In this document: one piece after another, positions 5,081 to 62,657 of the stretch
How positions within the stretch are numbered: position 1 is the first letter of the stretch
How the letters are laid out: each line of letters starts with the position of its first letter
From: Dechloromonas sp.
GTDB lineage: Bacteria; Pseudomonadota; Gammaproteobacteria; Burkholderiales; Rhodocyclaceae
Assembly: GCA_011391255.1 (NCBI GenBank)
Contig: JAABQV010000001.1
Span: 62,001 to 126,000, forward strand
DNA: 64,000 nucleotides
Direction of reading: 5' to 3'
Position numbers and translations under genes: made by a program
The notes under the pieces: model-generated
Seen by the model: the letters and a program-made list of their open reading frames with translations, nothing else
What the model was told of the DNA's origin: nothing
Databases searched by the model: none

Positions 5081-5092
5081 ATTGACCGCAAC
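5081..5092. repeat. ATTGACCGCAAC, near copy (11/12) of the recurrent 12-mer at a convergent junction
   Basis: Located in the 34-bp gap between the convergent tsaD and plsY stop codons. It differs from GTTGACCGCAAC at one base only. Confidence 0.6.
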
Positions 5093-5094
5093 AA

Positions 5095-5691
5095 TCAAGT
5101 ATTTTTCTTGCTGCCGATCTTGGACTCCTGCCCGGCAACAAGGCGCTGCATGTTCTGCCAGTGCTTGCCGATCAGCGCCATCGAGATGATGCCGACTACA
5201 AATATTTGGCTGCCGGCGCCATGCATCAATGCCGAAAACATTGGTGCCATTGCAGCGGCCAGTACTGCGGCTAGTGATGAGTAGCGCGAAACATAAGCGA
5301 CCAGCAGCCAGGTGCCTAGAACGGCCATGCCGAGCAAGGGGTCGAGGGCAAGTAGCACGCCGGCGGCGGTAGCGACACCTTTACCACCCTTGAATTTAAG
5401 AAAAACCGGGTAAAGGTGGCCAAGAAAAACGGCAAGCGCAACGAGGCCAACCAGCGCATCGGAAAAGCCCAGGCTTTGTGCGATGAAAACGGCGGCCCAG
5501 CCCTTGAAGCCGTCGCCAATCAGGGTCAGCAGCGCCGCCTTCTTGTTGCCGCTGCGCAAAACATTGGTCGCGCCAGGGTTGCCCGAGCCGTAACTGCGCG
5601 GATCAGCGAGCCCGAAAATTTTCGACGAAATCATCGCGAAGGGCACTGAGCCGAGCAGGTAGGCGGCGAGGATGGCGAGGGCGTTTTGCAT
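5095..5691 (-). CDS. plsY: Acyl-phosphate:glycerol-3-phosphate acyltransferase PlsY
   Basis: Integral membrane enzyme that transfers an acyl chain from acyl-phosphate to glycerol-3-phosphate, the first step of phospholipid synthesis (PlsX supplies the acyl-phosphate). 198 residues with about five hydrophobic segments. The glycine-rich motifs GSGNPGATNVLR and FKGGKGVATAAG, characteristic of PlsY, are both present. It starts MQNALAILAAYLLGSVPFA. Convergent with tsaD, divergent from folB. Confidence 0.96.
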   Translation of the reverse strand: MQNALAILAAYLLGSVPFAMISSKIFGLADPRSYGSGNPGATNVLRSGNKKAALLTLIGDGFKGWAAVFIAQSLGFSDALVGLVALAVFLGHLYPVFLKFKGGKGVATAAGVLLALDPLLGMAVLGTWLLVAYVSRYSSLAAVLAAAMAPMFSALMHGAGSQIFVVGIISMALIGKHWQNMQRLVAGQESKIGSKKNT

Positions 5692-5757
5692 GGGTCTTTA
5701 GGGTCGCTGAGGTACAATCGCGGCCAATTTTACACCGCTGCTACGGTCGACTGCCTT

Positions 5758-6108
5758 ATGGACATCATTTTCATCGAAGAGCTACGCGCCGAGACGTGGA
5801 TAGGGATTTATCCGCGTGAGAAAGCGATGCCGCAGACTGTCGAAATTTCTTTGCGAATTGGCGTGTCGACCGTATCTGCCGGCGCCAGCGACGATATTCG
5901 TGACACCGTCGATTACGCGGTGGTTGTCGAGCGTCTGCGCGGCGATCTTTCCTCCAGTCACTTCAATTTGCTCGAAGCCCTGGCCGAGCATGTGGCGACC
6001 TATCTTCTCGAAACCTTTGCCGTGCATTGGGTGCGCGTTTCGATCGCCAAGCTGGGGATGATGCCGGGCGTCAAGCGCGTTGGCGTGGTCATCGAACGTA
6101 CCCTCTGA
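5758..6108 (+). CDS. folB: Dihydroneopterin aldolase FolB
   Basis: Converts 7,8-dihydroneopterin to 6-hydroxymethyl-dihydropterin in folate synthesis. 116 residues, starting MDIIFIEELRAETWIGIYPRE, with the family pattern DTVDYAVVVERLR and the C-terminal VSIAKLGMMPGVKRVGV. The start is the ATG at 5758; the frame is open 72 bp further up but that part resembles nothing and includes a TACAAT that could be a -10 element. Divergent from plsY, as often seen in proteobacteria. Confidence 0.95.
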   Translation: MDIIFIEELRAETWIGIYPREKAMPQTVEISLRIGVSTVSAGASDDIRDTVDYAVVVERLRGDLSSSHFNLLEALAEHVATYLLETFAVHWVRVSIAKLGMMPGVKRVGVVIERTL

Positions 6109-6146
6109 GAGCTGCGGGGTCACAGGATTTTCGGCCGGTTTCCGGC

Positions 6147-6158
6147 GTTGACCGCAAT
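6147..6158. repeat. GTTGACCGCAAT, near copy (11/12) of the recurrent 12-mer at a convergent junction
   Basis: Located between the convergent stop codons of folB and the ZIP transporter. Flanking GGC on the left matches the extended form GTTGCGGTCAACGCC read on the minus strand. Confidence 0.6.
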
Positions 6159-6161
6159 TCC

Positions 6162-7037
6162 TCAGTAAATCGCGGCGAGCGCCGTCATCGCCGCAAACCC
6201 CGCGCCCAATCCGGCTGTGCCGGCAGATATCCTTCCAGCTTTGAGCGAGGCGGGAATCATTTCGTGGCTGACCACCCAGAGCATGGCGCCAGCCGCCGCG
6301 GCCAGGGCAAGCGGCAAAGTCACTTCGGCGAGACTGCCGGCAAGCGCGCCGAACAAGCCGCCAACCGGCTCGACCAGGCCAGTGGCAAGCGCAATAAGGG
6401 CGGCGCGCACCGGAGCGACACCGAGGGCGAGCATCGCGCTGGCAACAATCCAGCCTTCCGGGATGTTCTGCAAGGCAATGCCAAGACTCATGCCGTGATC
6501 TATCCCGGCCGTTGCCGCAATGCCGACGGCCAGCCCCTCGGGCAGATTGTGGATGGCGATGGCGGCAACAACGAGCTGCAACTGTGGCTGACGCAGGCTG
6601 CTTTCGACTTCCTCGACATGCGCATGTGGCCACAGACGGTCAAGATTCTGCATCGCCGTAACGCCCGCCAGAAAGGCGATTCCGCTAGCGGCGGCGAGCA
6701 ATCCGACGTTGGCGCTGGCGCTGACTGCCTGAACGGCCGGAACCAGCAAGGAAAAAAGGCTGGCGGCTAGCATCATGCCGCCGGCGAGGCCAAGCATCGG
6801 CGCCATCATGCGTTCAGATGGCCGGCGCATGAAGAGTAGCGGAAGCGCTCCGATACCGGTTGCGGCACCAGCGAAAAGACTGGCTTCGAGCCCTTTTAGC
6901 GCCTGCGGGTGGGCGGCAAACCATTGCACCCCTTGAGCGATCAGAAAAGCCAGGCTGACGGCAGTCATCGTGAGGCCAACCCAAAGCGGGAGGCGGCTTT
7001 GCGGCTTGGCGTAATGCTGAATAACGAGTTGGGTCAT
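6162..7037 (-). CDS. ZIP family metal (zinc) transporter, ZupT-like
   Basis: Inner-membrane transporter of the ZIP family, which moves Zn2+ or related divalent metals into the cytoplasm. About eight hydrophobic segments. The signature metal-site motifs of helices IV and V are visible: HNLPEGLAVG and QNIPEGW, plus EPVGG further on. A short histidine-bearing loop (WPHAHVEEVE) precedes them. The start at 7037 (MTQLVIQHYAKP) is chosen because GGAG sits 8 nt before it and overlaps the upstream in-frame GTG. 291 residues. Substrate specificity cannot be read from sequence alone. Confidence 0.9.
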   Translation of the reverse strand: MTQLVIQHYAKPQSRLPLWVGLTMTAVSLAFLIAQGVQWFAAHPQALKGLEASLFAGAATGIGALPLLFMRRPSERMMAPMLGLAGGMMLAASLFSLLVPAVQAVSASANVGLLAAASGIAFLAGVTAMQNLDRLWPHAHVEEVESSLRQPQLQLVVAAIAIHNLPEGLAVGIAATAGIDHGMSLGIALQNIPEGWIVASAMLALGVAPVRAALIALATGLVEPVGGLFGALAGSLAEVTLPLALAAAAGAMLWVVSHEMIPASLKAGRISAGTAGLGAGFAAMTALAAIY

Positions 7038-7129
7038 GGCGGGCACTCCTTTGTCTTGAGTGCCACTTTAAGTTTTTGCCGGCAATAGCGCCAATGGATA
7101 GATTTAATCTGGTCGATTGCGAATGGCAA

Positions 7130-7621
7130 TCACGACTTGAGGGCGACTGCGACCGTGGTTGGATTCAGCGTGCGCACGATATCATGCGGATGCACGCCCA
7201 CTAAAAAGCCTCGCTTGCCGCCGTTGATATAGATCAGAGCCAGGTCAAGGATGCTCTTCTCGAGATAGACCGGCATTTGTTTTTTGGTGCCGAAGGGGCT
7301 GGTTCCGCCGACCAGGAACCCGGTGTGGCGGTTGGCGACTTCCGGCTTGCAAGGCTCGACTTTCTTGCAGCCGATCTGGCGTGCCAGCTCCTTGGTCGAT
7401 ACCTTGCAGTCGCCGTGCATCAGAACGATCAGCGGCTTGGCGTTTTCGTCTTCAAAGACCAGCGTTTTAACCACCGAATGCTCGGCAACATTCAGTTCGC
7501 GCGCCGACACTTTGGTGCCGCCATGTTCCTCATAGGCGTAAAGATGGCTGGAAAAAGCGATTTTGTGCGCCTTCAAAAATTTCGTCGCAGGCGTTTCGGG
7601 GGCGTATTCGTTCTTGGTCAT
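7130..7621 (-). CDS. ybaK: Cys-tRNA(Pro)/Cys-tRNA(Cys) deacylase YbaK/EbsC
   Basis: Trans-editing enzyme that hydrolyses Cys mischarged onto tRNA(Pro). 163 residues. The YbaK fold signatures are seen: KTLVFEDENAKPLIVLMHGD, the conserved lysine region VSTKELARQIGCKKVE, and GFLVGGTSPFGTKK. It lies 9 bp downstream of xerD on the same strand and is probably cotranscribed with ogt and xerD. Confidence 0.95.
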   Translation of the reverse strand: MTKNEYAPETPATKFLKAHKIAFSSHLYAYEEHGGTKVSARELNVAEHSVVKTLVFEDENAKPLIVLMHGDCKVSTKELARQIGCKKVEPCKPEVANRHTGFLVGGTSPFGTKKQMPVYLEKSILDLALIYINGGKRGFLVGVHPHDIVRTLNPTTVAVALKS

Positions 7622-7630
7622 GGGCGTATT

Positions 7631-8554
7631 TTATCCACGTGGATGGTGCATCGCGTGTAGCGATTTCAGACGTTCGCGGGCGACGTGAGTATAAATTTGC
7701 GTGGTTGAGATGTCGGCGTGGCCGAGCAGCAGTTGGACGACGCGCAGGTCGGCACCGTGGTTGAGCAAATGCGTCGCGAAGGCGTGGCGCAGGACGTGCG
7801 GCGAGAGTTTGGCCGGGGCGATGCCGGCAATCAATGCGTAGCGTTTGATCAGTTGCCAGAAGGCCTGACGGGTCATCGCGCCACCGCGCGCCGTAACGAA
7901 TAGCGACTCGCTTTGCTGGCCTTTAAGAATCTCCGGGCGGGCTTCGTTGAGGTAACGGGTGAGCCAGTCGATGGCCTGCTCGCCAAGCGGTACCAGGCGC
8001 TCCTTGCTGCCTTTGCCGAGGGCGCGGACAACGCCTTCGTTGAAGCCGACTTCATGGATCTTCAGATTGACCAGCTCGGAGACACGCAGGCCGCTGGCGT
8101 AGAGGGTTTCGAGCATGGCGCGGTCGCGCAGGCCGAGCGGGGTGTCAAGATCGGGGGCGGCGAGCAGGTGGTCGACCTGCTTCTCCGACATCACTTTGGG
8201 CAGCCGTGAGGGGCGCGCCGGGTTGGCCAGTTTCAAGGTCGGGTCGACAAAAATCCGGCCGCGCCCGAGTTGCCAGCGGTAGAAGCGGCGCAGCGTCGAC
8301 AAGTAACGCGATTGCGAGCTGGCGCGGGTTTGCCGCGAGAGCTCGGCAATGAAGGCGCTGAGCGTGGTTTCGCGCAGGTCGAGCAGACTTTCGCCGGCGT
8401 TATTGACCAGCCACAGCGAGAGGCGGCCGAGATCGGAGCGATAGCTGTCCAGCGTCGCCTTGGCCAGGCCGTCTTCCAGCCAAAGCGCGTCGCAGAAGTT
8501 GTCGACTTCGGCGAGATCAGCCGCGCGTGCTGGAAAATTCGCTGTTGTTTTCAT
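7631..8554 (-). CDS. xerD: Site-specific tyrosine recombinase XerD
   Basis: Tyrosine recombinase that, with XerC, resolves chromosome dimers at dif near the division septum. 307 residues: an N-terminal core-binding SAM-like domain ([12 protein letters not shown] onward) and a C-terminal catalytic domain with the RHRH-Y residues, visible as [33 protein letters not shown] and the nucleophile in IYTHV. It starts inside the 3' end of ogt (38-bp overlap), which implies translational coupling. XerD rather than XerC is judged from overall similarity and is less certain than the family. Confidence 0.9.
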
Positions 8555-9023
8555 GGGTCAGTAGCCAGCGTTTGATGTCCAGCAGCAGGCCGCCACGCTC
8601 GCCGGCAAAGCCGCCTAGTTTCTTGTCACCCGTACCGCCGGTGGCGACGACGCGGTGACAGGGAACGACCAGCGGAAACGGGTTGGCTCCGCAGGCTTGG
8701 CCGACGGCTCGCGGTGCATTTTTGAGCCTTTTTGCCAGTTGACCGTAAGTGTCTGTCCGGCCGCAGGGAATTCCCGAAATTTGTTCCCAGACGCGGCGCT
8801 GGAATATTGTGCCACTGGGGCGCAAGGGCAGGCTGAATTCAAAGGCCGGGTCGCTCAGGTAGTTGCGCAATTGACGTGCCGCTTCGCCAGCCAGCAAGGT
8901 GCCTGGCGTTTGCTCGGGCTGCGCTTCGAGAAAGTCGATACGAGTGATTTCATCCTCAGTGCAGCAAATGCCCAGCGCAAAGCCGGGGGCGGCGACGATG
9001 GCTTGATAGGGGATGGTATTCAT
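8517..9023 (-). CDS. ogt: Methylated-DNA--protein-cysteine methyltransferase Ogt
   Basis: Suicide repair enzyme that moves the methyl group from O6-methylguanine (or O4-methylthymine) to its own cysteine. 168 residues from the ATG giving MNTIPYQAIVAAPGFALGIC. The active-site PCHRVV is present, with the helix-turn-helix segment TDTYGQLAKRL before it and GANPFPLV just upstream. The frame is open for another 46 codons upstream but that extension overlaps the divergent MFS gene and is not conserved in character. Overlaps xerD by 38 bp. Confidence 0.93.
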   Translation of the reverse strand: MNTIPYQAIVAAPGFALGICCTEDEITRIDFLEAQPEQTPGTLLAGEAARQLRNYLSDPAFEFSLPLRPSGTIFQRRVWEQISGIPCGRTDTYGQLAKRLKNAPRAVGQACGANPFPLVVPCHRVVATGGTGDKKLGGFAGERGGLLLDIKRWLLTHENNSEFSSTRG

Positions 9024-9090
9024 GACAACTCTGTTCCGAACGGAGTGGTAGATTATCATGCGCCGGAAGCGACTTTGAGATGAGGCGGCG

Positions 9091-10293
9091 ATGAGTGAAC
9101 TGAAGCAAAAAGAAAATTCCTCCGGTGCGCTGGTGCTCGGTGGTGTGCAGTTTTTGTTCACGCTGGGATGGACGGTCTATGTCATCTACTTGCCGGAGCT
9201 ACTCAAGGGAGCCGGCATCGCGGCTAGCTGGCTGCCCTGGCTATTGATGGCCGATCAACTGGTCTTTGCGCTGATGGATATTGGTTTCGGTGTCGTTGCC
9301 GACCGTATCAGCGAAGGCTATCGCAAACTGGCGCATCTGTTGTTGTGGCTGACCACCGTCTCGGCCGGCGCATTTTTGCTGCTGCCCCTGGTCGGCGGCA
9401 CTTCTCCCGCCTTGTTGCTGGGCGTTTTGGCGATCTGGGTGCTTTCTGCTTCTGTCGTGCGCGCGCCGACGCTGGTTTTGCTGGCCAAACGGGCGAAGCC
9501 TATGCAACAGGGGCGACTGGTTTTCTGGTACGCCGGCGGGATAGCGCTGGCCTCGGCGCTCTCACCATTTCTCGGCTTGTGGCTCAAAGGGGCTGACCCA
9601 CGCCTGCCGTTTGCCCTCTCGGCGCTGGCTTTGCTGGCGGCGGTTGTGGTCTTGCTGCGCACTTCAGCCAGCCAAACGGTAGTGCCAGAAAAGGATTTGC
9701 CGGCGCCGATTCCCTTTGCTACCTACCTGCCGCTGTTGATCGTGCTTGCCCTGGCCAGCTTTGGTTTCCAGATCCATAGCTCGGTCAATGCCGGGCCGCT
9801 CTATCTGGCGCATGTCGCCAAGGAAAATTTGCCCTGGTTTCTGCCTCTGCTCTGGGTCGGCTTTTTCGCTGCTTTGCTAGGTGTCGGCTCACTGGTCAAG
9901 CGTTTTGCTGCCTTGCCGGTGGCAAGTGCGGGTGTCCTCTTGGCGGCAATCGCAAGTTACGCCTCGGTTGCGGTCGACGGCATAAATTGGCTGATTTTTA
10001 TGCAGCTGCTGGTTGGCGCCGGCTGGGCACTGACTTTTGCCGGCTTGATGGAACAGGCGACAGCAGATGGCACGCGTGGTGCCGAAGGCTTGTTCATGGG
10101 CGGCTTTTTCGCCATCACCGCGATCAGCACGTTTGCCCGCATCGGCTTTGCGACACAGTTCCTGCCGGACTGGAAAGGCGTTCAGTTTCAATTGCCGGCG
10201 CTCTTGTTGCTCAGCGCCTTGTTAATTGTAGCGGTCTACATCGTTAAGAGGCGGCAATCCCCGTCTGCGCCCGCCCGTGAATCAGGGCGCTAA
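9091..10293 (+). CDS. MFS transporter of unknown substrate
   Basis: 400-residue integral membrane protein with about twelve hydrophobic segments and a cytoplasmic loop after helix 6, the major facilitator layout. The A-motif-like loop reads DIGFGVVADRISEGYRK (between helices 2 and 3). No motif points to a substrate. GAGG precedes the ATG. Divergent from ogt with a short shared promoter region. Its last codons overlap, on the other strand, a relic of an acyl-CoA dehydrogenase (next entry), so the natural C-terminus may have been altered. Confidence 0.85.
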   Translation: MSELKQKENSSGALVLGGVQFLFTLGWTVYVIYLPELLKGAGIAASWLPWLLMADQLVFALMDIGFGVVADRISEGYRKLAHLLLWLTTVSAGAFLLLPLVGGTSPALLLGVLAIWVLSASVVRAPTLVLLAKRAKPMQQGRLVFWYAGGIALASALSPFLGLWLKGADPRLPFALSALALLAAVVVLLRTSASQTVVPEKDLPAPIPFATYLPLLIVLALASFGFQIHSSVNAGPLYLAHVAKENLPWFLPLLWVGFFAALLGVGSLVKRFAALPVASAGVLLAAIASYASVAVDGINWLIFMQLLVGAGWALTFAGLMEQATADGTRGAEGLFMGGFFAITAISTFARIGFATQFLPDWKGVQFQLPALLLLSALLIVAVYIVKRRQSPSAPARESGR

Positions 10294-10360
10294 TATCGTG
10301 GGTGCCTTCGCAGGCATGCACGAGTTCAACTAAAACGGGTCTTGCCAGGTGAACGACGGT
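10244..10360 (-). pseudogene. 3' relic of an acyl-CoA dehydrogenase (glutaryl-CoA dehydrogenase-like)
   Basis: On the minus strand, starting just after the proA stop codon and ending with TAA at 10244, one frame reads VELVHACEGTHDISALIHGR followed by AQTGIAAS and the stop. This matches the well-known C-terminal tail of acyl-CoA dehydrogenases of the GcdH type (EGTHDIHALILGRAQTGI-like). No start codon or upstream catalytic domain is present: the sequence upstream is proA. It therefore looks like the last ~30 codons of a deleted gene, overlapping the 3' end of the MFS gene. Confidence 0.6.
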
Positions 10361-11617
10361 TTATGCGCGGACGTGCCCATCACCGAGCACAATCCACTTC
10401 TGGCTGGTCAGTCCTTCAAGTCCAACCGGGCCGCGTGCGTGGATCTTGTCGGTCGAGATGCCGATTTCGGCGCCTAGACCGTACTCAAATCCATCGGCAA
10501 AGCGCGTCGAAGCGTTAATCATGACCGAGGCCGAATCAACTTCGCGCAGGAAGCGCATGGCTTTCGGGTGATTGTCGGTGACGATGGCTTCGGTGTGGTG
10601 CGATGAGTACTGGTTGATGTGGGTGATCGCCTCATTAATGCCGGCAACGACCTTGACTGAAATTATCGGTGCCAGGAATTCAGTGTAGTAATCCTCATCG
10701 CTGGCTGCGACGGCTTCCTTGACGATCGCGCAGGTTTCCACGCAACCACGGATTTCAACGCCCTTGGCGCTCAGCATGTGGGCAATCGGCGGCAGCAGCA
10801 TGGCTGCCACGCTGCGGTCAACGAGCAGCGACTCGGCCGTGTTGCAGGTGCCATAGCGCTGGGTCTTGGCGTTCTCGACGATTTTCAACGCCTTGTTCGG
10901 ATCGGCTTCTTCTTCGAGATAAACGTGGCAGTTGCCGTCAAGGTGCTGGATCATCGGCACGCGCGATTCGGCGAGCAGGCGGGCGATCAGGCCTTTGCCG
11001 CCACGCGGGACGATGACGTCGACGAACTCGCGCATGGTGATTAGTTCGCCAACCGCAGCGCGGTCGGTAGTATCGATGACCTGCACGCATTCGGCGGGCA
11101 ATCCGGCGGCTTTCAGGCCCTCCTGAATCAGCGCGGCGATCGCCCGGTTGGAGCGGATCGCTTCGGAACCGCCGCGCAGGATGGCGGCATTGCCGGATTT
11201 GAGGCAGAGCGCCGCAGCATCGGCGGTGACGTTCGGCCGCGCTTCATAAATGATGCCGATGACGCCGAGCGGCACGCGCATTTTGCCAACCTGAATGCCG
11301 GACGGGCGGAACTTGAATTCGCCCATTTCACCAATCGGGTCAGGCAGCTTGGCGACTTGTTCAACGCCTTCGGCCATGCTGTCGACACCCTTTTCGGTTA
11401 GCGTCAGGCGATCAAGCATGGCGCTTTCGAGGCCGGCAGCACGGGCGGCGGCGAGGTCCTCCTGATTGGCGGCTACCAGCGCAGCTTTTTCGCGGCGAAT
11501 GGCGGCGGCGATGTGCAACAAAGCGGCGTTCTTTTCAGCCGTCGATGCCATTGCCGTGCGTCGTGAGGCTGCGCGCGCCTGGCGGCCGACAGTCTGCATA
11601 TAATCTTTGATATCCAT
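10361..11617 (-). CDS. proA: Gamma-glutamyl phosphate reductase ProA
   Basis: Reduces gamma-glutamyl phosphate to glutamate-5-semialdehyde with NADPH, the second step of proline synthesis. 418 residues, the standard length. The aldehyde dehydrogenase-fold catalytic cysteine lies in [32 protein letters not shown] and [11 protein letters not shown] are family signatures. In many betaproteobacteria it follows holA; here a small gene on the other strand separates the two. Confidence 0.97.
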
Positions 11618-48001: not shown

Positions 48002-49093
48002 ATGAGTTTCACTGAACAGCAGATTAAGGCCGCCATCGCTGTTGCGGTCGACCCGAATACGGGCAAAGATTTCGTCGCCGGCAAGGCGCTCAAAAATATC
48101 AAGATTGACGGTGCCGATGTTTCTTTCGACATCGAGCTTGGCTACCCGGCAAAAACCCAGATCGACGGCATTCGCAAACAGGTGATCGCTGCCGTGCGCA
48201 CGCTGCCGGGGGTTGGTAATGTCTCGGCGAATGTATTTACCAAGATCGTTGCGCATTCGGTTCAGCAGGGCGTCAAGCTGGTTCCCGGCGTCAAGAACAT
48301 CATCGCCGTCGCCTCCGGCAAGGGTGGTGTCGGCAAGAGCACGACGGCGGTCAATCTGGCTTTGGCGCTGGTTCAGGAAGGTGCCAGTGTTGGCATTCTT
48401 GATGCCGATATTTACGGCCCGTCGCAGCCGCAAATGCTCGGTCTGGCCGGCGAGCAGCCGCAATCAACCGACGGTACCAGCATGGAGCCGCTTGAGGCTT
48501 ACGGTTTGCAGGCGATGTCGATCGGCTTCATGGTTGATGTCGAAACGCCGATGGTCTGGCGCGGCCCGATGGTTGCCCAGGCGCTCGATCAGCTGCTCGG
48601 TCAGACCAACTGGCGCGACATCGATTATTTGATCGTCGACATGCCGCCGGGTACCGGTGATATTCAGTTGTCGCTGGCGCAGAAAGTGCCGGTAACCGGT
48701 GCCGTGATCGTCACGACGCCGCAGGACATCGCGCTGCTCGACGCGCGCAAGGGTCTCAAGATGTTCGAGAAGGTGAATATTCCGATCCTTGGCATCGTCG
48801 AAAACATGAGCATCCATATTTGCTCCAAGTGCGGTCACGAAGAGCATATCTTCGGCAAAGGCGGTGGCGCGCAAATGAGTGACGACTACGACGTCGAACT
48901 CCTCGGCAGCCTGCCGCTGGAAATGGCGATCCGCGAGATGGCTGACAGTGGCGAGCCAACGGTTGTCGGTGACCCGGATTCCCGAACCGCTGAAATTTAT
49001 CGCACAATCGCCCGCCGTGTGGCGGTCAAGGTGGCCGAGAAGGCCAAGGACATGACCTCCAAGTTTCCGAATATCGTCGTCCAGAACACTTGA
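48002..49093 (+). CDS. apbC: Iron-sulfur cluster carrier ATPase ApbC/Mrp
   Basis: 363 residues. N-terminal MIP18-like domain (about 1-85), then a P-loop NTPase with deviant Walker A GKGGVGKST and DADIYGPSQPQMLG. The cluster-binding CSKC pair (HICSKCGHEEHIFG) is present. Transfers Fe-S clusters to target proteins. GGAG lies 6 nt before the ATG. Confidence 0.96.
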   Translation: MSFTEQQIKAAIAVAVDPNTGKDFVAGKALKNIKIDGADVSFDIELGYPAKTQIDGIRKQVIAAVRTLPGVGNVSANVFTKIVAHSVQQGVKLVPGVKNIIAVASGKGGVGKSTTAVNLALALVQEGASVGILDADIYGPSQPQMLGLAGEQPQSTDGTSMEPLEAYGLQAMSIGFMVDVETPMVWRGPMVAQALDQLLGQTNWRDIDYLIVDMPPGTGDIQLSLAQKVPVTGAVIVTTPQDIALLDARKGLKMFEKVNIPILGIVENMSIHICSKCGHEEHIFGKGGGAQMSDDYDVELLGSLPLEMAIREMADSGEPTVVGDPDSRTAEIYRTIARRVAVKVAEKAKDMTSKFPNIVVQNT

Positions 49094-53313: not shown

Positions 53314-55542
53314 ATGCGCTTCCATTTCCCGATCATCATCATTGACGAAGACTTCCGCTCCGAGAATACCTCCGGCCTGGGTATCCGCGCTTTGGCCGAC
53401 GCGCTGGAAAAGGAAGGGCTGGAAGTGCTCGGCGTCACCAGCTACGGCGATCTGACCTCATTCGCCCAGCAGCAATCCCGCGCCAGCGCCTTCATTTTGT
53501 CGATTGATGACGAAGAACTGGCTTTGGAGCCGGAAGAAACCCTTGCCGGTCTGCGCGCGTTTGTCTCCGAGATACGCAATCGCAACTCTGAAATTCCAAT
53601 TTTCCTGCATGGTGAAACCCGCACCTCGCGCCATATTCCGAACGATGTGCTGCGCGAATTGCATGGTTTTATTCACATGTTCGAAGATACCCCGGAGTTC
53701 ATCGCCCGCAACATCAAGCGCGAGGCCAATGCCTATCTTGACTCGCTGCCGCCGCCTTTCTTCCGCGCCTTGACGCATTACGCAGCGGATGGCTCTTACT
53801 CATGGCATTGCCCGGGGCACTCGGGCGGCGTCGCATTCTTGAAATCGCCGGTTGGGCAGATGTTCCACCAGTTTTTTGGTGAAAATATGCTCCGTGCGGA
53901 TGTCTGCAATGCCGTCGAAGAACTCGGCCAGTTGCTTGATCACACCGGCCCGGTCGCTGCTTCGGAGCGCAACGCGGCGCGCATCTTCAACGCGGATCAC
54001 CTGTATTTCGTCACCAACGGCACCTCGACCTCGAACAAGATTGTCTGGCACTCAACCGTTGCACCGGGCGACATCGTCGTCGTCGACCGCAACTGCCACA
54101 AGTCCATCCTGCATGCGATCATGATGACTGGTGCGATCCCGGTCTTCCTGATGCCGACGCGCAACAACTTCGGCATCATCGGGCCGATCCCGAAATCGGA
54201 GTTCCTCTGGGAGAACATCCAGAAAAAGATCGCCGCCAACCCCTTCATCATCGACAAGACGGCCAAGCCGCGCGTGCTGACCATCACCCAGTCCACCTAC
54301 GATGGCATCCTTTACAACGTTGAGGACATCAAGGAAGAACTTGATGGCAAGATCGATACCCTGCACTTTGACGAAGCCTGGCTGCCGCACGCCGCATTCC
54401 ATGACTTCTATGGCGATTACCACGCCATTGGCGCTGACCGCCCGCGCTGCAAGGAGTCGATGATATTCTCGACGCAATCGACGCACAAATTGCTTGCCGG
54501 CCTCAGTCAGGCCTCGCAAATTCTCGTACAGGACGCCGAAAATCATCAGCTTGACCGCGATATTTTCAACGAAGCCTATTTGATGCACACCTCTACGTCG
54601 CCGCAATATTCGATCATCGCCTCCTGCGATGTGGCGGCAGCGATGATGGAGGAGCCGGCAGGCACCGCGCTGGTTGAAGAATCGATTACCGAAGCCCTCG
54701 ATTTCCGCCGTGCCATGCGCAAGGTGGACGAGGAGTGGGGCGCCGACTGGTGGTTCAAGGTTTGGGGGCCGGACGATTTGTCCGAAGAGGGTATCGAGGA
54801 ACGGGATGCCTGGATGCTCAAACCGGGTGACCGCTGGCATGGCTTTGGCAATCTTGCCGATGGCTTCAATATGCTTGACCCGATCAAGGCGACCATTATC
54901 ACGCCGGGCCTCGACGTCGATGGCGATTTTGCCGACGACTTTGGCATTCCGGCAGCGATTGTCACCAAGTATCTCGCCGAACACGGCGTTATCGTCGAAA
55001 AGTGCGGCCTCTACAGCTTCTTCATCATGTTCACCATCGGCATCACCAAGGGTCGCTGGAATACGCTGGTGACGGCGCTGCAGCAGTTCAAGGACGATTA
55101 CGACAAAAACTTGCCGCTGTGGAAAATGCTGCCGGAGTTCGTGCAGAAGAACCCGCGCTACGAGCGCGTCGGTTTGCGCGACCTCTGTACCCAGATTCAC
55201 GGCGTGTACAAGAAAAACGACGTTGCCCGCCTGACCACCGAAATGTATTTGTCGGATATGGTGCCGGCCATGCGCCCGGCTGATGCCTTTGCCAAAATGG
55301 CACACCGTGAAATCGAGCGGGTAGCGATTGACGAACTCGAAGGCCGGATTACGGCGGTACTGCTGACTCCCTATCCGCCGGGTATTCCCCTGCTAATTCC
55401 GGGTGAGCGCTTCAATACAAAGATTTGCAATTATTTGAAATTTGTCCGTGAATTCAACGCAACCTTTCCCGGTTTCGAGACCGACACCCACGGACTGGTC
55501 AAGGATAGCGAAGGGCGGTATTACGTGGATTGCGTCCGGTAA
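53314..55542 (+). CDS. Arginine/lysine/ornithine decarboxylase
   Basis: 742-residue PLP enzyme of the large (AdiA/CadA/SpeC-type, fold III-like wing) family. N-terminal wing domain (FPIIIIDEDFRSENTSGLGI), catalytic domain with HCPGHSGGVAFLKSP and the PLP lysine in STHKLLAGLSQASQI; LHFDEAWLPHAAFHDFYGDY precedes it. Decarboxylates a basic amino acid for acid resistance or polyamine synthesis; which substrate is unclear. Start ATG 53314 chosen because MRFHFPIIII is the family N-terminus. Confidence 0.93.
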   Translation: MRFHFPIIIIDEDFRSENTSGLGIRALADALEKEGLEVLGVTSYGDLTSFAQQQSRASAFILSIDDEELALEPEETLAGLRAFVSEIRNRNSEIPIFLHGETRTSRHIPNDVLRELHGFIHMFEDTPEFIARNIKREANAYLDSLPPPFFRALTHYAADGSYSWHCPGHSGGVAFLKSPVGQMFHQFFGENMLRADVCNAVEELGQLLDHTGPVAASERNAARIFNADHLYFVTNGTSTSNKIVWHSTVAPGDIVVVDRNCHKSILHAIMMTGAIPVFLMPTRNNFGIIGPIPKSEFLWENIQKKIAANPFIIDKTAKPRVLTITQSTYDGILYNVEDIKEELDGKIDTLHFDEAWLPHAAFHDFYGDYHAIGADRPRCKESMIFSTQSTHKLLAGLSQASQILVQDAENHQLDRDIFNEAYLMHTSTSPQYSIIASCDVAAAMMEEPAGTALVEESITEALDFRRAMRKVDEEWGADWWFKVWGPDDLSEEGIEERDAWMLKPGDRWHGFGNLADGFNMLDPIKATIITPGLDVDGDFADDFGIPAAIVTKYLAEHGVIVEKCGLYSFFIMFTIGITKGRWNTLVTALQQFKDDYDKNLPLWKMLPEFVQKNPRYERVGLRDLCTQIHGVYKKNDVARLTTEMYLSDMVPAMRPADAFAKMAHREIERVAIDELEGRITAVLLTPYPPGIPLLIPGERFNTKICNYLKFVREFNATFPGFETDTHGLVKDSEGRYYVDCVR

Positions 55543-56344: not shown

Positions 56345-57670
56345 ATGTTTATCAAAAAAATTCGGTTAGCAGGACTCGTTTCTGCATGTTTCGTCTGTTT
56401 TCAGCCAATATCGGTTTTTGCTGATCAGTTAACGGATGAGGCATTGGCCTTGCTCAACGCCAATAAGGGCAGCGCAGCTTATGCCTTGCTTGAGCCCCAG
56501 GAAAGCGCGCGGGCTGGAGACACTGGCTACGATTTCCTGCTCGGCCTGGCAGCGCTAGAAGTCGGGCAAAATACCCGCGCTGTCTTTGCCCTGGAGCGCG
56601 TGCTTGCGATTGATCCCACCAATGTTCGGGCGCGGGCAGAAATAGCCCGGGCTTACCTGGCTCTTGGTGAAGTCGAGACTGCGCAGCAGGAGTTCGAGAC
56701 GGTTCAGAAGCAAGGTGTGCCTGCCGACGTATCGCTAACCCTTGATCGATATATTGCTGCCGCCAAACGTATCGGAAATCAGAACAAGCCGACAGTGAAC
56801 GCTTATGTTGAAAGCGTTTTTGGCTACGATACCAATGTCAATGTGGGTCCGAACCGGAGTTCCGTTGTTATACCCGGGTTTAGTTCAACGCCGGCAATAC
56901 TCTCCAGCGACAGCCGGGCCAACAAGGATATTTACGGGCAACTTGGGGGCGGGTTAAATGCGCGGGTTCCTGTTTCCAAGGATGTTGCCTTGCTGGCCGG
57001 GTTTTCCGGGGCGCAGCGTTGGAATCAGGACGTGAGTCAGTTCGATATGGGTAACTTTGACGCCAATGCAGGCGTTGTCGTAACCGCCGAGAAAAACGTA
57101 TTTACGCTGATGGGGCAATTTGGTTCAGTCAGCATTGACAATGCGCGCTATCGCACAGCAGCCGGTGCGACCGGTCAGTGGCAATACAACCTTGATGCAC
57201 GAAATCAGATCAGTGGATTCGTGCAGTACAGCAATTTGCACTATGTCGTTCAGACGATTCGCGACGCCAACCGCTGGGTTGGCGGTGCAGCTTATGCGCA
57301 TATGTTGAAGGATGGCGTGGTCGGGTTTGGCAGTGTCTATCTGGTCAAGGAAAAGCCGCAAGAGGCAAGCGTCGACTTTATCGGATTCGATGGCGTCGGG
57401 TTCAGGCTGGGAGCCAAGGCTGATTTGTCTAGCAAAGCCACCTTGTTTGGCGGCTTGTCCTACGAGCATCGCAGCTACTCAGCCGTTGATCCTTCCTTCC
57501 TGGTTGAGCGCAAGGACGATCAGTACGGACTATTGCTCGGTGCAACCTACGGCTTTGCCAAGGACTGGACGGTGACACCACAGGTAACCCTGACGCGTAA
57601 TCAGTCCAATACTGAACTCAATGAATATCACCGCGAAGTGGTCTCCTTGGCCATTCGTCGCGAATTTTGA
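56345..57670 (+). CDS. TPR plus outer-membrane beta-barrel protein, Slam/DUF560 (type XI secretion) type
   Basis: 441 residues. Signal peptide (1-26, ending ISVFAD), a TPR region of about 30-145 (LLGLAALEVGQNTRAVFALE, AEIARAYLALGEVETAQQEF), and a C-terminal barrel from about 155 with repeated amphipathic strands, ending in VSLAIRREF (C-terminal Phe). The barrel opens with YVESVFGYDTNVNVGPN; a GYD-x-NVN sequence at this place is typical of DUF560/Slam proteins, which move lipoproteins or soluble TbpB-like cargo across the outer membrane. The gene lies directly between two FecR genes; the next one encodes a fitting cargo. Confidence 0.8.
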   Translation: MFIKKIRLAGLVSACFVCFQPISVFADQLTDEALALLNANKGSAAYALLEPQESARAGDTGYDFLLGLAALEVGQNTRAVFALERVLAIDPTNVRARAEIARAYLALGEVETAQQEFETVQKQGVPADVSLTLDRYIAAAKRIGNQNKPTVNAYVESVFGYDTNVNVGPNRSSVVIPGFSSTPAILSSDSRANKDIYGQLGGGLNARVPVSKDVALLAGFSGAQRWNQDVSQFDMGNFDANAGVVVTAEKNVFTLMGQFGSVSIDNARYRTAAGATGQWQYNLDARNQISGFVQYSNLHYVVQTIRDANRWVGGAAYAHMLKDGVVGFGSVYLVKEKPQEASVDFIGFDGVGFRLGAKADLSSKATLFGGLSYEHRSYSAVDPSFLVERKDDQYGLLLGATYGFAKDWTVTPQVTLTRNQSNTELNEYHREVVSLAIRREF

Positions 57671-57684
57671 TCAGGAGGCTCGTG

Positions 57685-59034
57685 ATGAAGCCGGTTTTTA
57701 AGCCCCGCAGCCACCTTTTGTTGATGGCGCTTGCCGCCTGTTATCCGGTCGTTGGTTATGGCGCCGGTACCGTGCGTTTGGATTTTGCCGTGGGATCTGT
57801 CGTTGCAGTCACCCCTTCGGGCACACAAAGACCTCTGGCCAAAGGCGCCGACGTTTTTTCAGGTGAAACAATCCGCACAGGCCCTGACGGTAGGGCTCAG
57901 TTGCGCTTTGACGATGGGGCAATGGTTTCCTTGCAGCCTCAATCGGAATTCCGTCTTGATAATTACCAGTTTTCCGGTACTCAAAACGGCCAGGAAAAGG
58001 GCTTCTTTTCCTTGTTGAAAGGTGGTTTCCGCACTCTGACCGGAATTGTCGGGCGGACAAACAAGGACAATTACAAGGTGACCACTGCGGTTGCCACCAT
58101 TGGTATTCGCGGCACCGAGTACACGATCTCATACCTTGATTCCAATGCCATTTCGATCTCCAACGGCGAGGGCTCCATTGAGGTGTGTAACGGCGCTGGC
58201 TGCGTGATTTTGCGCAGTGGCGACTCGGCAATTGTTGAAGGCCCCAATTCTCCATTGCGATTGACTGATACCCGGCCGCGTCTTGATCCGCCTCAGATTC
58301 CGCAACCGCTTCTTGCTACTTTTTCAACCAGTGAGGGGCGCAATCCTGACGGTTCTTTGGCTATAGCACCTCAAATGGTTTCCGGCCCTGGCTATACAAT
58401 GGCTTTTGCGGGCTTTGATACATCTGGCTCCAGTCTGTCCCCGGATACTCGCAGCGACGTGACGGCTCAATTTGATGCATCTAGCACGCTCACCTCGGCG
58501 ACCGGGGGGGGGAGTACATTTAATGTAGCTAGTATTGCTGGAGGGTTTTCGGCTGACGGAGTCATTGGCTGGGGACGTTGGTCGACCGGTACGGCAAGCA
58601 ATGTTGGAGGCTCCTCATCACTGGTTGATGTCAAAGACTTCCACTACGCGGTTGGTAAGACTACAGCTGCGGGCGAGTTGACGGCACTGGCAGGCCTGAC
58701 TGCTACATATAATATGATCGGTTACACGTTGCCAACGTCTTCCAGCGGAGGAGTTGGCGGAGCGCCAAGCGGTACGCTGACGGCGTCGTTTGGTGCATCA
58801 TTAATGAATTTGTCGTTGAACCTTACTGTTCCGTTTGGAGGGGTTTCCCACAACCTCTCTGGATCAACATCATCATTAGTCGCTCCGACGTTTGCACTAG
58901 ATTTAACCGGTACATCTGCGTTTGGGATTGCTTCAGGGTTTTTTGCTGGTACTAATGCTTCGCACGCTGGCATTTCATATAGGGTTAATGCAGGCAGTGA
59001 CACTATATCGGGTGCGGTCGCGTTCAAACGTTGA
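57685..59034 (+). CDS. FecR-domain protein with TbpB-like C-terminal barrel (candidate secreted cargo)
   Basis: 449 residues from ATG 57685 (AGGAGG 6 nt upstream; the ORF opens 18 bp earlier). Possible lipobox LAAC with C19, or signal-peptidase I cleavage near GYGA. FecR domain at about 30-190 (VSLQPQSEFRLDNYQFSGTQ, VATIGIRGTEYTI). From about 295 the pattern GWGRWS ... HYAVGKTT ... YNMIGYTLPT ... GFFAGTNASHAGISYRV ... GAVAFKR is the TbpB/lipoprotein-type barrel known from Slam cargo. A G9 tract (58504-58512) lies between the domains. It starts 14 bp after the Slam-like gene. Confidence 0.82.
   Translation: MKPVFKPRSHLLLMALAACYPVVGYGAGTVRLDFAVGSVVAVTPSGTQRPLAKGADVFSGETIRTGPDGRAQLRFDDGAMVSLQPQSEFRLDNYQFSGTQNGQEKGFFSLLKGGFRTLTGIVGRTNKDNYKVTTAVATIGIRGTEYTISYLDSNAISISNGEGSIEVCNGAGCVILRSGDSAIVEGPNSPLRLTDTRPRLDPPQIPQPLLATFSTSEGRNPDGSLAIAPQMVSGPGYTMAFAGFDTSGSSLSPDTRSDVTAQFDASSTLTSATGGGSTFNVASIAGGFSADGVIGWGRWSTGTASNVGGSSSLVDVKDFHYAVGKTTAAGELTALAGLTATYNMIGYTLPTSSSGGVGGAPSGTLTASFGASLMNLSLNLTVPFGGVSHNLSGSTSSLVAPTFALDLTGTSAFGIASGFFAGTNASHAGISYRVNAGSDTISGAVAFKR
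58504..58512 (+). repeat. G9 homopolymer tract in the cargo gene
   Basis: Nine consecutive G, the longest such run I see in the window, codes for Gly-Gly-Gly between the FecR and barrel domains. Slippage by one base would remove the barrel. Confidence 0.6.
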
Positions 59035-59986
59035 TTATCCAGTTGAGATAATCATTGCGCGCTTCGGTGCCACAGATTTTTTCGGCCGCCAGTCGTGCTG
59101 CTTTGCCGATGGCTTCGCGCTGATATGTATTTTTTCGCCAGGCCATCAACTGGTCGTACGCTTCTTCCTGGCTGCTAAACAGGCGGCCGTTTTCCCCGTT
59201 GTTGATCCAATGCAGGTAGCCCCCATGTTCGTGCGCCAGAACAGGTAGTCCGCTGGCCATGGCTTCAATGACTACAAGGCCTGCAGCTTCCGGAAGGGAA
59301 GCAGAAGTCCGGTAGAAAAATGCATCCAGGTTCCCGAGGAAATCTTCGGGGGGCAATGTTCCTGTCGGTAGCAAATTAACGTTTGGGGTCTGGCCAATGC
59401 TTGCTTTCAGCGAAGTTCCGCCCATTAGGCTGGTTTCGATGTTGTTCCAGGCCAGCATTTTGTAGAGCGATGGATCGTCTGGGTGATGCTTGTCCAACTC
59501 GTCCCGTGAGTGGCGGCCGATACGAAAGCGGGTTCCCTGTCTATGTCGGGAAGGATGGAATCGATTGAGATCAATCGGTGGCGAAGAAACTCTTCCTGGC
59601 AGCGCGAGCGTGGTTTTGAGCGTTTCCGAAACGAACTCCAGTTCGACTTTGGGTAAGGTCGGGCGCTCCAGAAACGATAGAAATGCAAAGGTTCGGGTCA
59701 GCGAGAAAAGGTTGCAGATCACGATCAGGCGCTTTGGGCGAACGTGATCAAGCCAGATGCCGGTATCGATATGCGTTCCCAGCAGGATGAGCGTGCCGCC
59801 GCGTGGCATCTGACCACTGAATGGGGAAATCGTCTTGGCGCGATGCTGGGTGGCAGCGCTGCTTGAGCGATCCGTCCACAGGATCGTCGGTGCGGCCGCG
59901 CTGAGCAGAGCGGCAAGTGATGATGCGTGAGCCTCGGTGCCGCCAATGCCATCGAAGCGCGTGACAATATGTATGGTGTCCGTCAT
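59024..59986 (-). CDS. GT4-family glycosyltransferase
   Basis: 320 residues from ATG 59986 (MTDTIHIVTRFDGIGGTEAH). GT-B fold with the glycine-rich N-terminal loop GIGGTEA and the C-terminal nucleotide-sugar motif SLPEAAGLVVIEAMASGLPV (E-x7-E) followed by HEHGGYLHWINNGENGRLF. Retaining transferase; donor and acceptor unknown. Its 3' end overlaps the FecR-barrel gene by 11 bp (convergent), and it is divergent from the O-GlcNAc transferase with 35 bp between. Confidence 0.85.
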   Translation of the reverse strand: MTDTIHIVTRFDGIGGTEAHASSLAALLSAAAPTILWTDRSSSAATQHRAKTISPFSGQMPRGGTLILLGTHIDTGIWLDHVRPKRLIVICNLFSLTRTFAFLSFLERPTLPKVELEFVSETLKTTLALPGRVSSPPIDLNRFHPSRHRQGTRFRIGRHSRDELDKHHPDDPSLYKMLAWNNIETSLMGGTSLKASIGQTPNVNLLPTGTLPPEDFLGNLDAFFYRTSASLPEAAGLVVIEAMASGLPVLAHEHGGYLHWINNGENGRLFSSQEEAYDQLMAWRKNTYQREAIGKAARLAAEKICGTEARNDYLNWIINV

Positions 59987-60021
59987 GATTCCAGTCCGTC
60001 CCGTGGAGATGAATTGTAACA

Positions 60022-62142
60022 ATGAGTGAGCGTGCAGAATCGCCCGAACAGCGCCTTGGTCTGGCTCTGAGTGACGGTGAGCAATTGGATCCCGCTGCCT
60101 GGTTTTCGCTGGGCGCGGAATTGCATCAGGCTGGCAGCCTTGAGGCGGGACTGACGGCTTTTGAGCGGTTTGTTCAACTTGTTCCCGACGATATTTCCGG
60201 TTGGCACGCCGTCACTGCCTTGCGCCTCGCACTGCGGCGACCGGCGTCGGCATTGTTGGCCTGCAATGAGGCGCTGAGCAGAAATCAGGATGACCCGGCA
60301 AGTCTCTTCAATGCAGCGGTAACGCTGGAGGCGCTTGGTGACCTTGAGGCGGCACTGCATGCTTATATTCGTGTTCTTGCGATTTCCCCGGGGCATCAGG
60401 GCGCACTGCTCAATCGTGTTCCCCTTTTGGCGCGATTGCTCCGCACCGCTGAAGCAATTGATGCCGGCGAGGCTGGCGTCTCGGCGCACCCTAATTCAAG
60501 TGATGCCTGGTTCAATCTGGGCGAGGCTTTCACGTCTGCCAGTCGTCATCAGGCGGCGCTGGATGCTTACGCCAAGGCGCTCGATCTCGATCCCGGCCTA
60601 GGCAAGGCGGATGTGGCGATGGCTGTGAGCGAAGCGGCTCTTGGGCATCTGTTGCGGTCAACGGCGAGATTTGAGCGAATTTTTCGCGAGCAACCCGAGG
60701 CACTTTCGGGTTTTGCCAGCCCTCTGCTGACTGATAAATTCAGTGCCTTTCCGGATCTGGAACCGGGGCGTATCGCGCTGATTTCAGTGTACGAGGCGTA
60801 TCGTGTTTGTGAGAAAAATGCCGCCCGAACACTAACCGGATTGTTTAAGCAGGTTATTGCGGGCGATGGATGTCGCCCGCTGGATAACCCTGATTTGCCC
60901 TTTCTGGCCATAGGCTTGCCCTTGTCTGGTGAAGACCGCCTGCGGGCTGCCAGGCAGGTTGCTGCACGCATTCAATCGAGCGTTGAGGGGCGTCAGCTGG
61001 TGAAGCACACACGCCGGAAAAGTGAGCACTTACGAATCGGGTATGTCTGCGGTGATTTTCGCATGCATGCGACCAGCCATCTGCTCGGCCGCTTGTTCGG
61101 CCTGCATGATCGGGAGCGTTTTGAGGTGTTTGGCTATTCGATCGGGCCTCAAGATGACAGTGCGCTTCGGGCCGAGGTGATTGCCGGGTTCGACAGCTTC
61201 GTCGATGCCCAAATCTATGACCCGCTGGCGCTGGCCCAGCGTGTTGCCCTGGATGGTATCGACATACTGGTTGATCTGTCTGGCTATACCCTCCATTCAA
61301 AGCCGGCGAGTTTCGCCTTGCGACCAGCACCGTTGCAGGTTTCTTACCTGGCTTATCTGCAAACCTCCGGTGTTAACTGGATCGACTATGTTTTCCTCGA
61401 CAGGCAGGTGTTGACCGCAACGGAACGCAGTTTCTGGCAGGAGAAAATCCTTTATCTCCCAGATACCCTTTATATCTGCGACGACACTCCCGTGGTCAGC
61501 GATGCGCGGCCAGCACGCGAGCAATTCGGGATTCCGGCCGATGCCTTTGTCTATTGCTGCCTCAGTGCCCCTTGGAAAATAGGCGAGGAAGATTTTGCCC
61601 TGTGGATGGAAGTTTTGCATGCTGTTCCGCAGGCGGTGCTATTTCTCTATGCCGATCCGCTTGCTGCCGCAACGCACTTGCAAGCCGCCGCCGTCGAGGC
61701 CGGGATTGATCCCGAACGCCTGATTTTTAGTGGACGATTGCCGCACCAGCAACACCTGGAACGGTTTATGGTCGCAGATCTATTTCTCGACACAAAAAAC
61801 TGCAATGCGCATACAACGGCGATTGAGGCACTGGCCGCCGGATTGCCGCTGTTGACGCGCCCGGGTGTAACCGTGCAGTCGCGGGTGGCAGCTGGCTTGC
61901 TGGCGGCGCACGGTGTCGAAGAACTGGTGGCGACGAGCGATCAGGAATATGTTGCCAAGGCGATACGCTTTTCGGCAGATGCGGGATGGCGCGAGAAATT
62001 GCGCGAATCGTTGTTACGCCGGGAGGGGTCCGGATTGTTTTGCACCGAAGCCAAGGTTCGCCAGATTGAGCGCGGCTATGAAATGATCTGGCAGCGTCAT
62101 TTGGCCGGACTGGCGCCAACGGATATGGATGTGCCCGGTTAG
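60022..62142 (+). CDS. SPINDLY-type O-linked glycosyltransferase (OGT family, GT41)
   Basis: 706 residues. N-terminal TPR array at about 20-230 (SDAWFNLGEAFTSASRHQAA then LDAYAKALDLDPGLGKADV), then the GT41 catalytic region: RIGYVCGDFRMHATSHLLGR, DILVDLSGYTLHSKPASFAL, LQVSYLAYLQTSGVNWIDYV, and the C-terminal LFLDTKNCNAHTTAIEALAA with GLPLLTRPG. Bacterial members glycosylate proteins (for example adhesins or flagellin). Neighbour to a secretion pair suggests a surface-protein substrate, which is inference. Holds two exact copies of the recurrent 12-mer. Confidence 0.88.
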   Translation: MSERAESPEQRLGLALSDGEQLDPAAWFSLGAELHQAGSLEAGLTAFERFVQLVPDDISGWHAVTALRLALRRPASALLACNEALSRNQDDPASLFNAAVTLEALGDLEAALHAYIRVLAISPGHQGALLNRVPLLARLLRTAEAIDAGEAGVSAHPNSSDAWFNLGEAFTSASRHQAALDAYAKALDLDPGLGKADVAMAVSEAALGHLLRSTARFERIFREQPEALSGFASPLLTDKFSAFPDLEPGRIALISVYEAYRVCEKNAARTLTGLFKQVIAGDGCRPLDNPDLPFLAIGLPLSGEDRLRAARQVAARIQSSVEGRQLVKHTRRKSEHLRIGYVCGDFRMHATSHLLGRLFGLHDRERFEVFGYSIGPQDDSALRAEVIAGFDSFVDAQIYDPLALAQRVALDGIDILVDLSGYTLHSKPASFALRPAPLQVSYLAYLQTSGVNWIDYVFLDRQVLTATERSFWQEKILYLPDTLYICDDTPVVSDARPAREQFGIPADAFVYCCLSAPWKIGEEDFALWMEVLHAVPQAVLFLYADPLAAATHLQAAAVEAGIDPERLIFSGRLPHQQHLERFMVADLFLDTKNCNAHTTAIEALAAGLPLLTRPGVTVQSRVAAGLLAAHGVEELVATSDQEYVAKAIRFSADAGWREKLRESLLRREGSGLFCTEAKVRQIERGYEMIWQRHLAGLAPTDMDVPG
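60651..60662. repeat. GTTGCGGTCAAC, exact copy of the recurrent 12-mer
   Basis: In the OGT gene, in a frame giving Leu-Arg-Ser-Thr. Confidence 0.7.
61410..61421. repeat. GTTGACCGCAAC, exact copy of the recurrent 12-mer
   Basis: Second copy in the OGT gene, 760 bp on, in the other orientation; reads Leu-Thr-Ala-Thr. Confidence 0.7.
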
Positions 62143-62657
62143 CTGCGACCGTAGGTGACGAAGGACGCACGCGTGCCATCGCCGCTTATTAGTGGCCTGC
62201 AGTTCAGAGCCTGCCAGTGGTCGGCGGAAAATTCAGGAAACCACGCGTCACCCTCGGGTTCAAAATCGACTTCGGTGATTTCCAGTCGGTCGGCGAAAGC
62301 CATCGCCTGCCGGTAAATCTGCTCGCCGCCGATGATGAAGGCAATGCTTGGCCCCGTACTCCCTTCGGTTGCGGTCGACACCGTTTTCAGGGCATTTTCC
62401 AGTGAGTCGGCAAGCTCGGCGCCGGTCGCCGGGAAATCTTTCTGACGGCTGATGACGATATTTCGCCGCCCCGGTAGCGGGCGAAAGCGCGGTGGTAGCG
62501 ACTCCCAGGTTTTTCGTCCCATGATGACTGTGTGTCCGGCGGTTAGCGCCTTGAAGTGCGCCATGTCTTCCGGGATGTTCCAGATCAGCTGATTGTCGCG
62601 GCCGATAACGCGGTTTTTGGCTACGGCGGCGATGATGACGATTTCAGGTTTGGACAT
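62139..62657 (-). CDS. folA: Dihydrofolate reductase FolA
   Basis: Reduces dihydrofolate to tetrahydrofolate. 172 residues from ATG 62657 (MSKPEIVIIAAVAKNRVIG). Catalytic acid in WNIPEDMAHFK, NADPH-binding MGRKTWESLP and the FIIGGEQIYRQAM segment. The frame is open upstream, but that would overlap glgA. Stops overlap the OGT stop by 3 bp. Confidence 0.95.
   Translation of the reverse strand: MSKPEIVIIAAVAKNRVIGRDNQLIWNIPEDMAHFKALTAGHTVIMGRKTWESLPPRFRPLPGRRNIVISRQKDFPATGAELADSLENALKTVSTATEGSTGPSIAFIIGGEQIYRQAMAFADRLEITEVDFEPEGDAWFPEFSADHWQALNCRPLISGDGTRASFVTYGRS

Follow-up and report, generated by a model that had tools for sequence, protein, structure and literature searches.

A 33-base element with two phased AT tracts, a probable DNA-uptake signal of the genus Azonexus/Dechloromonas

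A 64,000-nucleotide stretch of a Dechloromonas sp. genome (positions 62,001 to 126,000 of contig JAABQV010000001.1, assembly GCA_011391255.1; hereafter the window) contains many copies of a 12-base word, GTTGCGGTCAAC. Here we describe this word as part of a directional 33-base element, composed of the core RTTRCGGTCRAC and two AT tracts, at +17..19 and +27..31, which lie one helical turn (11 bp) apart. The element is spread over the whole genome and through part of the genus, where it is patchily distributed and differs in dialect. We put at roughly 0.85 the probability that a DNA-uptake signal sequence of the genus Azonexus/Dechloromonas has this word as its core; through such a signal cells would favour DNA of their own kind. 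This is probably a third DNA-uptake signal, evolved independently and recognised by the type IV pilus/ComEC machinery. An earlier note on the window had offered three candidates for the word, namely a DNA uptake sequence, a chromosome-organisation site and a protein-binding site; the evidence set out below favours and supports the first of these.

Results

A longer, directional element has the word as its core

The strong over-representation of the word claimed in the earlier note is confirmed as real and genome-wide. The window holds eight exact copies, comprising the seven already listed and one at 4853 that had been overlooked, and every one of the five one-mismatch copies listed there is also present. 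With up to one mismatch allowed, the window gives 20 matches; 100 dinucleotide shuffles gave 0.40 on average and never more than 3. Under an order-3 Markov model the window's top 10-, 11- and 12-mers are the word and its sub-words. The variant GTTGCGGTCGAC had been placed correctly at 9967, 12096 and 62368 but wrongly at 48051 (the true position is 48041), while a further copy at 54082, on the - strand, had been missed. Across the whole genome (3,294,249 bases in 60 contigs), GTTGCGGTCRAC occurs 264 times (130 copies on the + strand and 134 on the - strand), whereas the reversed pattern occurs only twice (2 + 0).

The extent of the element became visible in a sample of 449,353 bases, made up of the window and 385,353 further bases of the same genome. 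The 36 exact 12-mers in this sample, picked regardless of their flanks, have a common 3′ flank that is GC-rich at +13..14, AT-rich at +17..19, GC-rich at +22..25 and AT-rich at +27..31. The second AT tract is the stronger of the two, with A or T at +28 and +29 in 36 of 36 copies. The short inverted ends of the word, mentioned in the earlier note, are beside the point: the element has a direction, both of its AT tracts lying on the same side of the core. It is the two phased AT tracts, unseen in the earlier note, that make the case for an uptake signal.

When a profile refined by iteration was run over both strands of the 449-kb sample at a threshold of >14 bits, it found 174 sites (158 of them scoring >20 bits); three order-3 Markov simulations gave 3, 3 and 2. 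Extrapolation suggests about 1,280 such sites per genome. The CGG of the core is nearly fixed, at 95-99% of these sites. In the window there are 27 profile sites, given here with coordinates, strand and score, and copies at 10811 and 54082, among others, fall below the threshold.

279..311, + strand: core GACGCGGTCAAC with two AT tracts, 19.0 bits
4853..4885, + strand: exact core, 27.9 bits
5060..5092, - strand: at a convergent junction, 34.7 bits
5740..5772, + strand: GCTACGGTCGAC, 26.7 bits
5844..5876, - strand: GATACGGTCGAC, facing the site at 5740..5772, 21.7 bits
6126..6158, - strand: in a convergent intergenic gap, 29.3 bits
8717..8749, - strand: CTTACGGTCAAC, 27.9 bits
9967..9999, + strand: GTTGCGGTCGAC, 35.9 bits
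12096..12128, + strand: GTTGCGGTCGAC, 26.7 bits
14006..14038, + strand: within the leucyl-tRNA synthetase gene (named by eye), 22.6 bits
16290..16322, - strand: exact core, 37.3 bits
16510..16542, + strand: exact core, 32.0 bits
20677..20709, + strand: GTCAGGGTCAAC, 23.7 bits
24170..24202, + strand: exact core at a convergent junction, overlapping the 3′ end of a - strand gene, 33.5 bits
29989..30021, + strand: TTTGCGGTCAAC, 32.6 bits
31560..31592, + strand: TTCGCGGTCAAC, 27.1 bits
34407..34439, + strand: exact core, 26.9 bits
35337..35369, + strand: exact core, 20.5 bits
40024..40056, - strand: within a dnaE-like gene (named by eye), 20.7 bits
41043..41075, - strand: in a convergent intergenic gap, 26.8 bits
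45038..45070, + strand: TCTGCGGTCGAC, 26.0 bits
46770..46802, - strand: CTTACGGTCGAC, 28.0 bits
48041..48073, + strand: GTTGCGGTCGAC, 26.7 bits
55644..55676, - strand: intergenic, GCTGCGGTCAAC, 29.3 bits
60651..60683, + strand: exact core, 35.7 bits
61389..61421, - strand: exact core with a low score, 18.0 bits
62368..62400, + strand: GTTGCGGTCGAC, 29.4 bits

The element is confined to one genus and patchy within it

Identified by eye, the window's leucyl-tRNA synthetase (LeuS) matches those of records labelled Azonexus, Dechloromonas or Azonexaceae at 83-89% identity; its identity to that of a metagenome-assembled genome (MAG) labelled only Proteobacteria reaches 91%. Among 80 loci from relatives, scanned with the own-genome profile (>14 bits), five carry several sites: MAG MnB_19 (5), Azonexus fungiphilus (12), Dechloromonas sp. 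STC_125 (17), D. denitrificans (7) and Azonexaceae s22 (4). Of the remaining 75, 71 have no match, three have one and L056 has two; the profile-free loci include several from Azonexus/Dechloromonas (L004, L006, L010 and L047).

A strict pattern, CGGTCRAC-N5-WWW-N7-DWWW, was then counted in 76 genomes of the GTDB genus Azonexus/Dechloromonas, where the own genome has 738 copies. Counts are bimodal: 206-1004 in 39 genomes (class high, >150), 33-139 in nine (intermediate, 26-150) and 2-24 in 28 (low, <=25), with reversed controls summing to 0-6. Outside the genus, all 297 genomes (from 300 drawn from the order) have <=10 copies, within the range of the reversed controls, the count being 0-5 in the six of these that belong to the same family but to other genera. 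Among the genomes sampled, the element is confined to this one genus.

Between 80 and 398 kb of sequence from relatives was examined for dialects of the element (called a tag where its abundance is compared between genomes), by counting words without a seed and by refining profiles seeded with that of the own genome. Dialects vary mainly 5′ of CGGTCRAC: the own genome has TGTTRCGG, G061 has TYACGG, and G070, G084 and G097 have TSCYRCGG, with an additional A run near +33 in G070 and G084. Cores are looser in G063 and G064, whose top word is the palindromic CGGTCGACCG and in which the first AT tract is weak. All six tag-rich relatives profiled keep CGGTCRAC and the second AT tract. Genus-wide counts of two dialect words show the same difference, with 383 GTTRCGGTCRAC versus 145 TSCYRCGGTCRAC in the own genome and 31 versus 610 in G070. 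The word list of G070 is headed by another repeat. In five genomes of the low and intermediate classes (G060, G035, G066, G069 and G088) no word of this kind heads the list, and 80 kb of each yields 0-6 profile matches. In G069, which has few tags (L193-L196), the list is headed by a different dispersed repeat, CGTCATTCCC / CTGGATTCCC.

On a LeuS tree of 63 genomes, one of the genus's two deepest branches carries the element, and three outgroup records have no profile match in their fetched loci. Presence and absence require 8-9 parsimony changes, compared with about 19-22 when labels are shuffled, or else 11-16 losses from a single gain, exact numbers for which one gene tree is weak evidence. 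The GTTR dialect reappears at several places on the tree. One LeuS, at G076:C13:17137-18719, is split, and a stop interrupts one of the pieces, which may reflect a sequencing error.

Sites are evenly spaced and arise by substitution

Gene calls in the 449-kb sample, made with a simple script rather than a standard annotation tool, place 134 of the 174 profile sites within genes (148.8 expected). These are divided 67:67 between orientations, i.e. without gene-strand bias overall, unlike the uptake sequences for which an excerpt of PMC2346458 reports an orientation bias within genes. The 44 convergent junctions contain 10 sites where 1.6 would be expected by length (P = 7e-6), divergent gaps 4 (3.2 expected) and co-directional gaps 18 (12.7 expected, P = 0.09). 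The association with convergent gene ends made in the earlier note thus stands as a tendency, although most sites are intragenic.

The same note had pointed to a Leu-Thr-Ala reading of the word and to codon bias as a contributor. Such readings do occur, but at only 18 of the 174 sites (140 in called genes), other frames and both strands also being used, so codon usage is not the cause and codon bias was rejected. A word linked to codon bias or to restriction-modification could explain GTCRAC within the core, as well as the palindrome at the head of the G063 and G064 lists; we give this very little credence in view of those frames, the excess at convergent ends and the one-sided AT tracts.

Replication-strand bias is slight or absent. 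In 20 stretches spread round the G063 chromosome, sites split 110:114 by GC skew (110 on the G-rich strand), and their counts are not over-dispersed (P = 0.25), with no regional clustering. The own genome has a mild excess of 100:74 (100 on the G-rich strand), and most of its contig C11 carries 79 + versus 50 - sites. These two excesses are what a recombination or segregation motif of the Chi or KOPS type would have in its favour. Such motifs are likewise over-represented chromosomal words and are polar relative to replication, whereas the element is non-polar in G063; on that split polarity was rejected and, the element having in addition a 33-bp two-part form, we judge this explanation very improbable.

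Over 310 kb, spacing is more even than random (coefficient of variation 0.74 versus 0.98, P = 0.0005), and the largest gap is 7.9 kb, compared with 12.5 kb at random. Seven pairs of sites lie <120 bp apart, all seven opposite-facing.

For 36 in-gene sites that could be aligned, 79 alignments to relatives were obtained, in 49 of which the relative lacks the core. Gaps at the site were rare in these 49 (two in the relative, one in the own genome), and sites arise by substitution, not insertion. Numerous near-perfect copies would also be expected of the remnants or copies of a mobile repeat, whether REP-like or a transposon end. That explanation was rejected because the alignments run straight through the sites in core-less relatives; with 134 sites intragenic as well, its probability is close to nil.

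Two mobile islands are free of the strict pattern, namely a 23 kb region of own contig C11 (~25.5-48.5 kb; L082-L083; 5.2 sites expected), the limits of which were drawn after the gap was noticed, and a 33.7 kb island of G002 (5.8 expected). By eye, the C11 region carries a serine recombinase, apparent type I restriction genes and an integrase-like gene, then a relaxase-like 1840-aa protein.

These data also bear on the remaining candidates of the earlier note, a chromosome-organisation or protein-binding site. If a chromosome-organising or nucleoid-associated protein, specific to the genus, bent DNA at the phased AT tracts, this would account for the even spacing and the bend-like tracts, and Karlin earlier read the Haemophilus uptake signal sequence (USS) in a similar way, as quoted in an excerpt of PMC1939737. 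Both candidates lose weight, since no clear bias by replication strand or by region is seen, dialects differ among relatives and the element was repeatedly gained or lost within one genus. As the two mobile islands also lack strict sites, we consider a chromosome-organising protein unlikely.

Competence genes and pilins do not sort with the element

The own genome has an intact ComEC (a 788-codon open frame) and DprA, together with a minor-pilin operon encoding a ComP_DUS-family pilin, a GspH-domain pilin, PilW and a PilX-like protein, the last marginally below the Pfam cut-off. DprA was found in 75 of the 76 genomes (none found in G019) and gives no signal with tag class. A ComP_DUS (PF16732) pilin was found in 70 of 76, tag-rich and tag-poor alike. 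Among pilins of seven genomes, chosen by a simple motif script and with G070 covered in part, there was no cluster of at least two genomes free of a tag-poor member. Two pilins searched by sequence against solved structures matched type IV pilins generally, and ribose-binding proteins at E >1.

The type IV minor-pilin locus has several clearly different layouts in the genus, with a ComP-like pilin first, or a FimT-like pilin first and a PilE-like one last. They occur in tag-rich and tag-poor genomes (L202, L211, L213, L223, L231, L234, L240, L306-L312, L329-L348).

Loss of ComEC was considered as a cause of tag loss and rejected: the gene is broken in 7 of 24 low versus 4 of 38 high genomes, a difference that is not significant (Fisher P = 0.09, uncorrected for kinship). 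This tally, made by hand, leaves out the nine intermediates and also five genomes where no ComEC was found, four of them low and one high; it scores G006 and G019 as broken though their matches stop at contig ends, and G073 and G074, with partial matches, as intact without a check.

The gene itself looks like an integration hot spot in the genus, with interruptions near residues 253/254 and 270 of the own protein. At ~253/254 there are inserts of 2.3 kb in G029 (L320) and of 5.3 kb, with a TniB protein, in G098 (L325). At ~270 there are islands of 32-34 kb in G088 (L314-L315) and G002 (L316-L317), which have few 20-mers in common (927/33,661), that of G088 carrying a large serine recombinase. 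In G067, G099, G005, G018 and G019 (L318, L319, L321, L324 and L326), no comEC sequence preceding these points was found in the stretch examined, and in the tag-rich G008 the comEC match has an internal stop, with fragments on two contigs (G008:C10:856383-856889). Mobile elements may be disabling transformation.

Discussion

Judged from its sequence, the element has the architecture of the Pasteurellaceae USS with a different core and phasing. Excerpts of PMC1626085 and PMC12616744 describe a GCGG core in that family, with Hin (AAGTGCGGT) and Apl (ACAAGCGGT) dialects diverging immediately 5′ of it, and two 3′ AT-rich segments, spaced by about a helical turn, suggested to permit kinking in uptake. 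The likeness extends to CGGT in the core, to two 3′ AT segments (11 bp apart here, centres 12 apart in the Hin dialect as excerpted), to dialects varying 5′ of a constant core and to hundreds to ~1000 copies per genome that are evenly spaced and originate by substitution. For both USS and the DNA uptake sequence (DUS) of Neisseriaceae, an excerpt of PMC1939737 notes no orientation bias round the chromosome and gives even spacing on Karlin's authority, with a qualification by its author. The Azonexus element differs from the USS in being betaproteobacterial, outside Pasteurellaceae, in its core, which extends to CRAC and has a variable first G, and in its presence and dialect, which shift often inside one genus; its AT tracts also lie ~6 bp farther downstream of the core than in Haemophilus, as far as the excerpts describe the latter. 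The CRAC extension, the variable G and the farther tracts argue for convergence over descent. It is likely that a third lineage evolved self-DNA tags alone, converging on the Haemophilus design, with repeated dialect switching and loss in the genus.

Like the DUS (GCCGTCTGAA), the element is a betaproteobacterial genome-wide self tag with dialects; two mobile islands are tag-free here, and DUS are reported missing from recently acquired genes in an excerpt of PMC2397512. A ComP_DUS-family pilin is a further point in common. The two are unrelated in sequence, the Azonexus element being without the CTG inner core and having flanking AT tracts, which the Neisseria DUS lacks according to an excerpt of PMC1626085. 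Opposite-facing pairs within 120 bp, moreover, number merely 7 among the 174 Azonexus sites.

We infer the following route of uptake from this architecture. The core would be gripped by a receptor on the cell surface, for which a type IV minor pilin is the likeliest candidate, and the AT tracts, one helical turn apart, would allow the DNA to bend or melt. In that state it would be pulled sideways through an outer-membrane pore, and would then enter via ComEC. If tag-bearing fragments are preferentially taken up and recombined, tagged alleles would build up through point mutation and biased gene conversion.

Several observations weigh against an uptake signal. ComEC and DprA are still present in most element-poor genomes, so that competence genes by themselves do not explain the pattern. 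Minor-pilin operon types, compared in 41 genomes in which several of the loci are short, do not sort with presence or dialect of the element and, since pilin presence and clustering do not sort either, none of the three identifies the receptor. The first G of GCGG is also not fixed, being G in 70% and A in 28% of own sites, and A in 80% of those in G061. In uptake sequences generally, perfect copies of the core far outnumber those with a single mismatch; TTRCGGTCRAC has 93 perfect versus 98 single-mismatch copies before background subtraction, although its reversed control (1 perfect and 47 single-mismatch) leaves ~92 versus 51 above background; for GTTGCGGTCAAC the figures are 36 and 58, with 22 of the 58 being GTTGCGGTCGAC. 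To these points we add the mild strand excess in the own genome and the greater distance of the AT tracts from the core than in Haemophilus. Finally, among the literature matches listed, and judging by titles, no uptake or transformation experiment in the genus was found. A search of open-licence full texts found, among the matches listed, no earlier report of the word, its sub-words or an uptake sequence of the genus.

If confirmed by experiment, the element would make Azonexus/Dechloromonas, an environmental genus, a third bacterial group with a self-recognition code for DNA. A core joined to phased AT tracts would then suggest a general solution to the problem of pulling stiff DNA through the outer membrane. 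A genus that includes tag-rich, tag-poor and dialect-switched species would offer a setting for the search for the receptor and for asking why tags arise and vanish, and coevolution of receptor and tag would be traceable in close relatives.

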